NCBI GenBank assembly: GCA_944393415.1
Contig: CALYAD010000036.1
Span: 1-64,000, forward strand
DNA from: an uncultured Clostridia bacterium
Lineage (GTDB): Bacteria; Bacillota; Clostridia; Oscillospirales; CAG-272
Length of the DNA stretch: 64,000 nt
Reading direction: 5' to 3'
The notes below the pieces were generated by a model. That model was given only the letters and a program-made list of their open reading frames with translations, had not been told where the DNA came from and searched no databases. Both the position numbers and the translations under genes were made by a program. Below, in pieces: positions 40,655 to 63,327 of this stretch. Numbering within the stretch: position 1 is the first letter of the stretch; the number at the start of each line of letters is the position of its first letter.

Positions 40655-40800
40655 CAGGCTGTCGAAAAATCAGCAAGCACATGCACAAACGTAGAATTCT
40701 TACGCGGCGCGGTACGCCGCAAAGTACGACAGGGGCTTTGCCCTTTGACCAAAAACTTTTTGTGTATTATTTTTGGCGAATTGACTTTTTCTACAGGCTG
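40655..40800 (+). mobile_element. MITE-like element, copy A (146 bp)
   Basis: Imperfect terminal inverted repeats: the left end reads CAGGCTGTCGAAAAAT and the right end, reversed, CAGCCTGTAGAAAAAG (13 of 16 the same). The interior shares GGGGCTTTGCCC, AAAACTTTTTGTGTATTAT and GAATTGACTTTTTCTAC with the elements at 48557 and 60474, but the CCGCC/GGCGG hairpin is deleted. It encodes no protein. No clear target duplication remains. It lies 34 bp upstream of the amidohydrolase start. Confidence 0.55.
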
Positions 40801-40834
40801 AAAATATAAATTATATGAAAACGGAGAGAAGCCC

Positions 40835-48431: not shown

Positions 48432-48556
48432 AATTTTCCTAAAGCTTTTCTGGAAAATTTCATTAGGCGGGGATTTATTCTACATTCATTTCAGGAAAAG
48501 TTTTTGGAAAACTTCAGCCCCACTTTTTTAAAAAAATTTTTTCCTCCATAGAGAAT

Positions 48557-48656
48557 GTCAGGGGCTTTGCCCCTTAACCCCACCGCCTTTTGAAAAAGGC
48601 GGGCGAAAACTTTTAGTGTATTATTTTTGGTGAATTGACTTTTTCTACACGCTGAG
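48557..48656 (+). repeat. MITE-like element, partial copy B
   Basis: It shares with copy C (60474-60649) GGGGCTTTGCCCCTTAACCC, the CCGCC-TTTTGAAAAA-GGCGG hairpin, GTGTATTATTT and the right end TTTTTCTACACGCTG. The left terminal repeat is not found; instead the region is embedded in other inverted A/T and G/C runs (48520-48690), so this copy is decayed or nested. Confidence 0.5.
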
Positions 48657-59292: not shown

Positions 59293-59321
59293 AGTATACC
59301 ACACGGTTCCGGGAAAATCAA
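59293..59321 (-). promoter_or_regulatory. Promoter of the sugar isomerase gene
   Basis: On the minus strand TTGATT (59316-59321) and TATACT (59293-59298), 17-bp spacer. The leader would be about 167 nt. It is divergent from the promoter at 59402. Confidence 0.6.
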
Positions 59322-60146: not shown

Positions 60147-60289
60147 AATCCGAAGTATCGATTGATTTCTTCGTGAACATAATATCAGCTATGCAAGAAA
60201 ATAAATAAAAGAAAATCTGAGCGTGAAACCATATGAATTCCGACCCGATTAAATACATCCTTTCACGTTTTTTTGCAAGCTCTAACAAA

Positions 60290-60436: not shown

Positions 60437-60465
60437 TTGACAACCATTACTAAATATGATATAAA
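60437..60465 (+). promoter_or_regulatory. SigA promoter split from its gene by an element insertion
   Basis: A perfect TTGACA (60437-60442) and TATAAA (60460-60465) with a 17-bp spacer. The 11-bp target duplication AAATATACTTG begins inside the -10 box (60463-60473), and the MITE-like element starts at 60474. The DUF4375 gene that it probably drove is now 308 bp away. Confidence 0.65.
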
Positions 60466-60473
60466 TATACTTG

Positions 60474-60649
60474 CAGTCTGTCTAAAAACCAGTAAGCCCG
60501 CACCAATATTCACAAACGCTGAAGTCTTATGATTTCGTCCTCCGCATAGGACGACAAGGGCGTTGCCCCTTGACCCCACCGCCTTTTGAAAAAGGCGGGC
60601 GAAAACTTTTTGTGTATTATTTGGGGCGTATTGGCTTTTCTACACGCTG
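60474..60649 (+). mobile_element. MITE-like element, copy C (176 bp) with 11-bp target duplication
   Basis: The ends are imperfect inverted repeats (left CAGTCTGTCTAAAAACC; right, reversed, CAGCGTGTAGAAAAGCC). The exact 11-bp sequence AAATATACTTG flanks both sides (60463-60473 and 60650-60660), as expected of a target-site duplication. Inside are the hairpins GACAAGGGCGTTGCCCCTTG and CCGCC-TTTTGAAAAA-GGCGG. There is no ORF. It is related to 40655-40800 and 48557-48656. Confidence 0.75.
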
Positions 60650-60772
60650 AAATATACTTGATAACATTTTGTATATCTTCATTATCTGAAAACCCGCCGC
60701 GAAAATGAACTGAAAATATATCTGTGAACTAAAACCATATATTATTGAATTAGAAAAGGAGACTATACCCGC

Positions 60773-61267
60773 ATGTTTAATAACTCTTCGCGCTATCTAT
60801 CGCTAAGCACCAAGGAACTCAGCGCTCTCCCCGATAAGGAGCTTATTAACGCGGCGCTGCTCCGTACAGAAAACAGGGTCTCACGCTTCGGGAGTCTGAG
60901 AGATGGAATAAATACGCTTTCCGACTCACAGAAAATCTTTTATGTCTTAGTTTGTTTTCAGACTGAAGTCGATAACGGCGGGCTTTGTCAGTTCTTTGTC
61001 AACTCCACTCGCGCCCTCGCGCCGTTTATCAGTGATTATCTGGATATTATCGGCGCAGACAGACACAAAACGCTCTTTGATGAATTCACAGGCAAATACG
61101 GTATAGACCTAAGAGACCTTTCATCCTTCGCCGCTGAAGACAAAACCGAATACAAAAAGCAAACCGGGCGCTGCCCCTTCGACGAATTCGACAAGGCTTT
61201 TTACAGTCTCGAGCCTCTCTATATATCGCTTACCGGTTTTGTCAGAAAACATATATCAGAATTTTAA
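60773..61267 (+). CDS. DUF4375 (DMP19-like) protein
   Basis: This 164-residue protein has the DUF4375 core: LSDSQKIFYVLVCFQTEVDNGGLCQFFVNSTRALAPFI (about 47-84), where EVxNGGxxQxFxNS is the family signature, then FDEFDKAFYSLE. The fold is helical and the function not established; DMP19 proteins have been described as DNA mimics in Neisseria, but that does not transfer automatically. The start lies 308 bp after a promoter that has been interrupted by the MITE-like element. It is 38 bp upstream of the glycosidase-like gene and probably cotranscribed. Confidence 0.78.
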   Translation: MFNNSSRYLSLSTKELSALPDKELINAALLRTENRVSRFGSLRDGINTLSDSQKIFYVLVCFQTEVDNGGLCQFFVNSTRALAPFISDYLDIIGADRHKTLFDEFTGKYGIDLRDLSSFAAEDKTEYKKQTGRCPFDEFDKAFYSLEPLYISLTGFVRKHISEF

Positions 61268-61305: not shown

Positions 61306-63327
61306 ATGGCTTTATCGGAAAAATGGTACACAAATTGCTATCGCCGCAATCTCGTCGATATGCACATCGAGGACTGGAATAAGGAATTTTTATCAAAATT
61401 TTCACCCGAGGACTATCTTGACAATCTGAGACGCGCGCATATACAGGCTACGATGATATATCTGCAATCGCACGCGGGACACTGTTATTTCCCGACAAAG
61501 GTCGGACATATGCACTCAGCGTTGAACGGTCGTGAGGACATGATAAAGCGGCTGATAGATCTCTGCCGCGCCGACGGCATAAAAGTCGTCGGATATTACA
61601 GCCTGATATATAACACCTATGAAGAGGACCGGCACCCTGAGTGGCGTATTATAACCGGAAGCGACGGCAGTTCGGCGCGTCAGAGAGGCGGACGTTACGG
61701 GCACTGCTGCCCGAACAACCCGGAATACCGTGACTTTATTGTCGCACAGATCAGGGAAATCGCGGATTACTTCACGCTTGACGGTATGTTTTACGACATG
61801 ACCTTCTGGCCGGGGATCTGCCGATGTACTCACTGTATGGAAATTTACAAAAAATCCGGTCTTAACGGGCTCCCGGATGAAAACTGGAACGACCCGGACT
61901 GGAGGAAGCTCGTGGACCTGAGAATAAAGGCAATGGGCGAATTTGCAAAATTCGTCACCGACGCCACCCGCCGGATAATGCCGCGCGTTTCCGTAGAACA
62001 CAACTACGCAAACGGAGTAGCCGGCGACACCTTTGAGAACGGGGCCACCGAACTGATAAACGAGCAGTGCGACTACACCGGCGGCGACCTGTATGGGGAT
62101 CTCTACAACCACTCTTTTACCGCGAAATATTATTACGGGGTTACAAAGAACCAGCCATTTGAGTATATGACCTGCCGCTGCGACCGCACATTAAACGCCC
62201 ACACCGTGACCAAAACCGAGGAATACCTGTCCACCGAGGTCATGCTTACCGCGGCTCATCACGGCGCGTCATTCATCATTGACGCTATAGACCCTGCGGG
62301 AACTCTTGACAAACGGGTCTACGACAGAATAGGCAAGGTGTTTGAGCGTCAGCTACCTTATGAAAAATACTTTTCCGGAGACATGATACAGGACGCTGCG
62401 GTGTATTACTCCACCGCAGGCAGATACAACAGCCGTAAACTGGGCTACACCAGTAAAACCTGCTCTATAAATGCGGTACGCGCGCTTATAGAACGTCATG
62501 TGCCGGTAGGAGTGCTGTCAAACGCTTCCACCGCCAAGGCATCCGCCTACCGCGCTGTTATCGCTCCGGGTATCGCCGGTATCTCGGATACCAATCGCTC
62601 CGACCTTGTCGGATACGTCGAAAACGGCGGTCTTCTCTACATATCCGGCGTTGAAGACATGGAGCTTCTCCGCGTTTTGCTCGGAGCGCGCTTTTCCGGG
62701 TACACAGAGGAAACTGCCGTTTATCTCGCGCCTACTGAGGCAGGTCAGAAATTTTTCGGAGAATTTAACCCCGATTACCCGCTTCCGACGGAAATAAGCC
62801 TGCCGAAGCTTGAGACTGACGGCTGCGAGACGCTCGCGGTAATGAAGCTTCCGTATACAAAGCAACATGAACGGCGCTTTGCTTCAATACACTCGGATCC
62901 TCCGGGTATTTTAACCGATATTCCGGCGCTGGTAACAAAATGCTTCGGAAAGGGTCGGGTTATCTGGTCGGCGGCTCCTATCGAAAACGATGGGCGGATT
63001 TCTCACAAAAAGCTGTTCGTTTCGCTGATACTCGGTTATATGGGAGAGCCTGTTCTGCAAACCGACGCTCCGAGGCAGATCGAGCTCGTATCTTTCAGAA
63101 GGAGTAATGATCTGCTTATCGGCGCGATCGACCTGCTCTGCACAGACGAGCTTATCCCGGTACGCAGCTTCAGCATATCAATAGTAAGCCCAAAGCCCGT
63201 TAAAGTTATAAGGCTCGGCGGCAAGGACAGACCGGACGCGGAAACAGCGTTCAGTTACAAAGACGGGAAAACAATTTTTGCCACAGACGAGCTTGTAATG
63301 TTTGATATGTACAGAATCGAGCTCTGA
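61306..63327 (+). CDS. Glycosidase-like protein with fucosidase/galactosidase-type barrel
   Basis: This 673-residue protein has no signal peptide. The first 360 residues form a TIM barrel: VDMHIEDWNKEF, IKVVGYYSLIYN, DGMFYDMTFWPGICRCTHC (about 161-179, a likely acid pair), VSVEHNYANG and FEYMTCRC. This is the pattern of the hypothetical glycosyl hydrolase 6/alpha-L-fucosidase-like group. Residues about 365-560 look like a beta-galactosidase trimerisation (class I amidotransferase-like) domain (AVIAPGIAGISDTNRSDLVGYVENGGLLYISG), followed by a C-terminal sandwich. The substrate is unknown. The start follows AAAGGAAA. Confidence 0.78.
   Translation: MALSEKWYTNCYRRNLVDMHIEDWNKEFLSKFSPEDYLDNLRRAHIQATMIYLQSHAGHCYFPTKVGHMHSALNGREDMIKRLIDLCRADGIKVVGYYSLIYNTYEEDRHPEWRIITGSDGSSARQRGGRYGHCCPNNPEYRDFIVAQIREIADYFTLDGMFYDMTFWPGICRCTHCMEIYKKSGLNGLPDENWNDPDWRKLVDLRIKAMGEFAKFVTDATRRIMPRVSVEHNYANGVAGDTFENGATELINEQCDYTGGDLYGDLYNHSFTAKYYYGVTKNQPFEYMTCRCDRTLNAHTVTKTEEYLSTEVMLTAAHHGASFIIDAIDPAGTLDKRVYDRIGKVFERQLPYEKYFSGDMIQDAAVYYSTAGRYNSRKLGYTSKTCSINAVRALIERHVPVGVLSNASTAKASAYRAVIAPGIAGISDTNRSDLVGYVENGGLLYISGVEDMELLRVLLGARFSGYTEETAVYLAPTEAGQKFFGEFNPDYPLPTEISLPKLETDGCETLAVMKLPYTKQHERRFASIHSDPPGILTDIPALVTKCFGKGRVIWSAAPIENDGRISHKKLFVSLILGYMGEPVLQTDAPRQIELVSFRRSNDLLIGAIDLLCTDELIPVRSFSISIVSPKPVKVIRLGGKDRPDAETAFSYKDGKTIFATDELVMFDMYRIEL

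Follow-up and report, generated by a model that had tools for sequence, protein, structure and literature searches.

A probable IS1182-derived MITE inserted at a candidate promoter in an uncultured Clostridia bacterium, and its hairpin-associated family

The DNA analysed here, called the window throughout, is a 64-kb stretch in which a DMP19-like gene is followed by a GHL6-type glycosidase-like gene. Both lie where a sequence-only reading of the same DNA had placed them, downstream of a short non-coding element. The features of the locus are as follows.

60437..60465, + strand: candidate promoter TTGACA-17-TATAAA, read directly, with TTGACA at 60437-60442 and TATAAA at 60460-60465
60453..60462, + strand: left arm AATATGATAT of a weak stem inferred for the empty site, 8/10 pairs with 60661-60670
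60463..60473, + strand: left target-site duplication AAATATACTTG, exact, overlapping the -10 box
60474..60649, + strand: MITE-like element, 176 bp, non-coding, recognised by its genome-wide family, aligned ends and end-to-end fold
60474..60515, + strand: left inverted end CAGTCTGTCTAAAAACCAGTAAGCCC..., 28/42 match to the right end, family consensus CAGGCTGTCGAAAAACCAGTAAGCAC
60532..60608, + strand: three-hairpin core, with hairpins at 60536-60553, 60555-60572 and 60579-60598
60608..60649, - strand: right inverted end, CAGCGTGTAGAAAAGCCAATACGCC... on the - strand, placed by the family alignment and the match to the left end
60631..60658, + strand: candidate hybrid promoter TTGGCT (from the element)-16-TATACT (from the duplication), found by scan, 9/12 matches
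60650..60660, + strand: right target-site duplication AAATATACTTG, exact, 11/11 bp
60661..60670, + strand: right arm ATAACATTTT of the weak stem inferred for the empty site, pairing with the left arm
60773..61267, + strand: DMP19-like gene (PF14300, DUF4375), downstream of the element
61306..63327, + strand: GHL6-type glycosidase-like gene, downstream of the DMP19 gene

The sequence-only reading had described a 176-bp MITE-like element with imperfect inverted ends, and this description is borne out both by the ends themselves, which match at 28 of 42 positions without gaps by our count, and by the family copies described below. The predicted fold of the 176 nt runs from end to end (-61.9 kcal/mol, z = -5.2). 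Instead of the two hairpins claimed earlier, the core holds three small ones. The element carries no transposase gene; a 65-aa chance ORF, the only one, covers most of the 176 bp. Rfam returned no match for the element and phage records contained nothing resembling it, while one plasmid record has 36 bp of a core hairpin in common with it and no more. The three-hairpin core (CCTCCGCAGAGG / GGGGCTTTGCCCC / CCGCCTTTTGAAAAAGGCGG-GCGAAAACTTTT) also occurs without MITE ends in genomes of the same genus and the same family (L064, L066, L067, L072 and L074), at times directly 3' of a stop codon. No Rfam family matches this core.

The element is one member of a multi-copy family. When the element and its flanks were compared with the own genome (2.33 Mb in 76 contigs), 29 matching places were found, the best of them 80-90% identical, and a later search added further partial copies. 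The own-genome loci that we read comprise about two dozen whole or partial copies. An alignment of seven copies, including the focal one, gives the family ends as 5' CAGrCTGTCGAAAAACCAGTAAGCAC... / ...GGCGAATTGACTTTTTCTACAsGCTG 3'. The termini are thus CAG..CTG, and they lie flush with the edges of the focal 11-bp duplication. A 24-mer of the left arm occurs at seven places in the own genome and at none in six genomes of the same genus. Some copies have a 25-26-bp hairpin module, CCCACCGCCTTTTGAAAAAGGCGGG, that others lack; the middle can be longer, at ~120 bp, and a second repeat can be nested inside. Weak matches to the left-arm pattern in three other genomes (G054, G104 and G253) were rejected as element copies, as their ends do not match.

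Two other family copies lie in the window. The copy near 40655-40808 has TATAAAAAGCGTAAATGCTTTTTATA at its left junction, and the one near 48536-48655 is a right half with a GCCCCCTTTTTTC..AAAAGGAGGGC palindrome after it. The second interspersed repeat, GCGTGAAACCgtccgcATTCTGACGCGATgtAATATaacTTTCACGCT, is more abundant than the MITE, with at least ~30 matching places in the own genome. It nests in long MITE copies, for example L023, L029 and L031, and what seems to be a degenerate copy of it precedes the focal element, near 60219-60268 of the window. At another locus (L106; G000:C32:32900-36000) a MITE copy is apparently interrupted by an IS3-type element together with other DNA, so that its outer ends are ~2.5 kb apart; a second MITE left end lies inside.

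Bacterial MITEs such as Correia, RUP, BOX and MITEAba12 are short and non-coding, have inverted ends, fold into hairpins and occur in many intergenic copies, and some carry parts of promoters (PMC10969869). The present element shares these traits and belongs to this known kind of mobile element. It differs from bacterial MITEs in general in that its family usually targets a hairpin and not a short sequence.

This preference is visible at the junctions. In the own genome a strong palindrome, defined by a score ≥8 and a start within 4 bp, adjoins the right junction in 17 of 24 copies, compared with 1.2% of 3000 control positions drawn at random from the window's intergenic DNA, the copy flanks being partly curated by eye. 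By the same criterion, 6 of 15 left junctions have a palindrome. Among distinct TIR ends from relatives and the own genome, 18 of 28 abut a palindrome with a score ≥8 (control, 44 of 3480 positions), and several of the ten that do not look like chance pattern matches inside genes. At least five own copies (L009, L019, L106, L103 and L105) carry a hairpin on both sides. It is exact over 27 bp in L009, ~20 bp with few mismatches in L019, AAGAAACCCTTTT..AAAAGGGTTTCTT on both outer sides in L106/L012, and only in part two-sided in L105. In these siblings the duplication spans the whole hairpin, ~20-30 bp, and only a few bases separate the junction from the foot of the hairpin. Several copies have unlike palindromes on their two sides, so duplication is not universal. 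Many of the junction hairpins are followed by T runs and, in our reading, look like terminators. Normally the family goes in at the foot of palindromic DNA, mostly hairpins that resemble terminators, and in several copies the insertion duplicated the entire hairpin.

Duplications that are variable in length and span palindromes led us to suspect the IS1182 family, and transposases of this family were sought with NCBIfam NF033551. An order-level relative (G036) contains an IS with an intact 484-aa transposase above the NF033551 cut-off, with DDE_Tnp_1, DDE_Tnp_1_6 and DUF772 domains (L049). It extends from CAGACTGTCGAAAAACTTCC to an inverted CAGACTGTCGAAGAACCCC and has the palindrome GTGTGGGGCGGGAAGATTCCCGCCCCACAC on both flanks. 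In a genome of the same family (G077), a degenerate IS with a broken transposase frame retains both ends, CAGTCTGTCGAAAAACGCCC and CAGACTGTCGAAAAAGTCAC (L095); the latter also resembles the usual right end of the MITE, GAAAAAGTCA. One such end lies beside a transposase remnant in the same genus (L057), and a further IS1182-family locus bears the end CAGnCTGTCGAAAAA (L052). Measured against the L049 transposase, those of L052, L057 and L095 show 46-64% identity. Those of L048, L075 and L076 are 45-53% identical to it and accompany related ends (CAGnCTGAAGACAAA in L048 and L075, CAGyCCGTCAAA in L076), with duplicated palindromes visible beside L048 and L076. IS1182 members ended by GGGGCTGTTGCA are distant: one (L113) is 22% identical to the L049 transposase over the aligned part, and another (L083) gave no match to it at the cut-off used. 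The pattern CAGNCTGTMGAAAAA occurs at 43 places in 13 genomes, the own genome included, compared with 9 places for a reversed control.

Because the end CAGnCTGTCGAAAAA also bounds IS1182-family ISs in the same genus, family and order, the focal element is best read as a non-autonomous MITE derived from such an IS. The ends give this derivation good support. The full-length L049 and the degenerate L095 resemble the MITE in their CAGnCTGTCGAAAAA ends and junction palindromes. They differ from it in carrying a transposase frame, intact in L049 and broken in L095, and the likeness seen lies in the ends and at the junctions. We infer that a transposase acted on the MITE in trans; an IS1182-family DDE transposase would have moved it. 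In the own 76-contig draft no intact transposase with MITE-type ends was found. The three NF033551 matches there are fragments, and the only one whose upstream flank was read, on contig C62, sits behind a different end. An intact IS could be absent from the draft assembly or could have been lost since. A MITE needs a matching transposase only while it is moving.

Two further kinds of element were seen. In two other genomes, 59-bp elements with CAGTCTGTCGAAAAA at both ends are set between palindromes (L153 in G013 and L167 in G314); these are minimal MITEs of the same end type. Another hairpin-associated type, with ends GGGGCTGTCGCAAAA / GGGGCTGTCGCAATAAGAGCCCC, directly adjoins several MITE copies (loci L010, L028, L109, L107 and L111), and on C62 it precedes the IS1182-family transposase fragment.

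Two staphylococcal elements of the IS1182 family, IS1272 and TnSha1, use inverted repeats as targets, among them terminators that RNA-seq has confirmed, and these targets have no consensus in primary sequence (PMC5678879, PMC4923244). They delete or replace the hairpin without a duplication (PMC4923244, PMC5678879). A model of structure-dependent transposition provides for three outcomes, in which the hairpin is replaced, the hairpin is duplicated, or the loop is duplicated (PMC5678879). The present family resembles IS1272 and TnSha1 in the IS1182-family transposase and in the hairpin or inverted-repeat target. In contrast to them, it usually keeps the hairpin beside the junction, in several copies on both sides. 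It shows the hairpin-duplicated outcome and, if our reading of the focal site below is right, the loop-duplicated one too. The literature searched names no IS1182-derived MITE, and a review of MITEs within it has no mention of IS1182 (PMC10969869); one may still have been described.

At the focal site, AAATATACTTG stands at 60463-60473 and again at 60650-60660 and flanks exactly 176 bp, as the sequence-only reading had it. These two copies are the only ones on the + strand of the 64-kb window; the - strand has a third, at 59319. At an offset of 187, AAATATACTTG is the sole exact 11-mer repeat in the 64 kb. A repeat of 11 bp is short, however, and the window holds 44 exact 11-mer pairs spaced 60-400 bp apart, so that the repeat alone is weak evidence; it might be a direct repeat that arose by chance on either side of an unrelated structured leader, with no transposition involved. 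What decides against this is that the family ends, drawn independently from the other genome copies, fall exactly on 60474 and 60649. The duplication is real because element ends set by other copies meet its inner edges to the base, a coincidence whose chance we estimate from base composition at ~1e-6. We therefore consider a chance repeat extremely improbable; the family evidence would already refute it unless the family ends were wrongly drawn.

Unlike its siblings, the focal copy has a strong palindrome on neither side. When the element and one duplication are removed, the site reads AATATGATAT-[AAATATACTTG]-ATAACATTTT, with 8 of 10 arm positions paired and a loop of exactly the 11 bp. Comparable arms around an 11-nt loop occur at 0.2% of intergenic and 0.4% of AT-rich positions, in a test that was framed after seeing both the sequence and the published model. 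An alternative hairpin drawn from the right junction, AAATATAC-13 nt-GTATATCT, carries little weight, being met by 4% of AT-rich controls. The arms are suggestive, post hoc, of an AT-rich stem-loop target whose 11-nt loop was duplicated. By analogy, and again post hoc, the focal copy would fit the loop-duplicated outcome of the IS1272 model and differs from IS1272 itself, where the hairpin is replaced and nothing duplicated, in its 11-bp duplication. At the head of the DMP19-glycosidase transcription unit it would have gone into this weak, AT-rich stem-loop, the 11-nt loop being duplicated in the process.

The element may have been an ordinary MITE inserting with a fixed ~11-bp stagger in AT-rich DNA, the stem-loop being a coincidence and the hairpin association reflecting selection, not recognition of structure, with insertions at terminators harmless and hence retained. 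The missing strong hairpin at the focal target, the ease with which weak stems arise in AT-rich DNA and the left junctions of several copies that have no palindrome speak for this account. It would not give the sibling duplications of ~20-30 bp that span hairpins. Moreover, the hairpin pattern is also seen with intact IS1182-type elements that share these ends, and transposition of IS1272 into hairpins is documented (PMC5678879, PMC4923244). On balance we find a fixed stagger unlikely. A second account holds that the transposase recognises the secondary structure of DNA and not its sequence, and that it can join the element either at the base of a stem-loop or at the loop edges, with duplication of either the hairpin or the loop as the result. 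A preference for terminators would follow because, once such a hairpin is doubled, the genes on both sides are still properly terminated; the focal copy would represent the loop-type outcome, at a weak stem in a promoter. In this specific form the account is a tentative one, to which we give a modest chance.

The left duplication overlaps the -10 box of the TTGACA-17-TATAAA promoter, and direct reading confirms this earlier observation. Our promoter scan did not list this site, as it required a T at the sixth base of the -10 box. The site matches the consensus at 11 of 12 positions and was kept whole by the duplication. The claim that the flanks, joined without the element, form one continuous promoter-leader is likewise supported. 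The start expected 6-9 nt past the left -10 box falls at 60471-60474, on the left junction. The insertion has not disturbed the ribosome-binding site AAAGGAG or the ATG at 60773, both of which follow the element. Transcription of the genes could now begin at the left promoter, which would put 176 nt of structured leader ahead of them, or at the right junction, where the hybrid promoter is weaker. Judged from sequence, reduced, raised and unchanged expression of the downstream genes are all compatible with this arrangement. The insertion might have lowered expression if transcripts starting at the junction were attenuated or destabilised by the hairpin leader. The position of the predicted start and the stable end-to-end RNA fold are in line with this; against it, a canonical intrinsic terminator inside the element was considered and dropped, the scan finding none, and the ribosome-binding site and start codon are well outside the hairpin. 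We regard lowered expression as possible but doubtful. Conversely, the insertion might have raised or restored expression, with the element's TTGGCT and the duplicated TATACT forming a hybrid promoter that drives both genes. Such a promoter, TTGGCT-16-TATACT, is present at 60631-60658, most family copies have TTGACT or TTGGCT at the same -35 place, and promoters borne by MITEs are known (PMC10969869). The hybrid is weak by itself, however, since the scanned region holds three promoter-like sites where shuffles give 2.3; it matches the consensus at only 9 of 12 positions, and the left promoter is intact and, by consensus, stronger. Raised expression thus seems somewhat improbable.

An empty site was sought in relatives. 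It would carry a single AAATATACTTG within GATATAAATATACTTGATAACATTTTG; a 27-mer of the predicted sequence has no exact match in genome_contigs, a collection that possibly lacks close relatives. The cytidylate-kinase-like gene upstream is conserved in five genomes of the same genus and the glycosidase in many relatives. The search of genome_contigs for an ortholog of the DMP19 gene found no relative, and a DMP19 gene stands beside the kinase or the glycosidase in none of the relatives' stretches examined. The best DMP19 relatives elsewhere are distant (26-37% identical).

Taken together, we consider it highly probable that 60474-60649 is an IS1182-derived MITE with CAGnCTGTCGAAAAA-type ends, moved in trans by an IS1182-family DDE transposase, and that this MITE belongs to a family that inserts at hairpin feet and here duplicated a loop at the start of the DMP19-glycosidase unit. 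Counting against this explanation, the focal target lacks the strong palindrome of the siblings, and the stem was read post hoc in AT-rich DNA. The sequence-only reading of the element as a MITE holds and can be made more precise: a MITE derived from IS1182 that targets hairpins. Several findings go beyond that reading, namely the existence of many copies, ends of the IS1182 type, hairpins as the customary target and the promoter candidate at the right junction. A seemingly isolated promoter insertion is now tied to a mobile family that targets DNA hairpins. Since one genome offers many natural insertion sites and intact IS relatives exist in others, the structure-dependent transposition proposed for IS1182 elements becomes testable, and so do two branches of the IS1272 model, duplication of the hairpin and duplication of the loop. 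For the DMP19-glycosidase unit, the insertion offers a concrete hypothesis of altered transcription.
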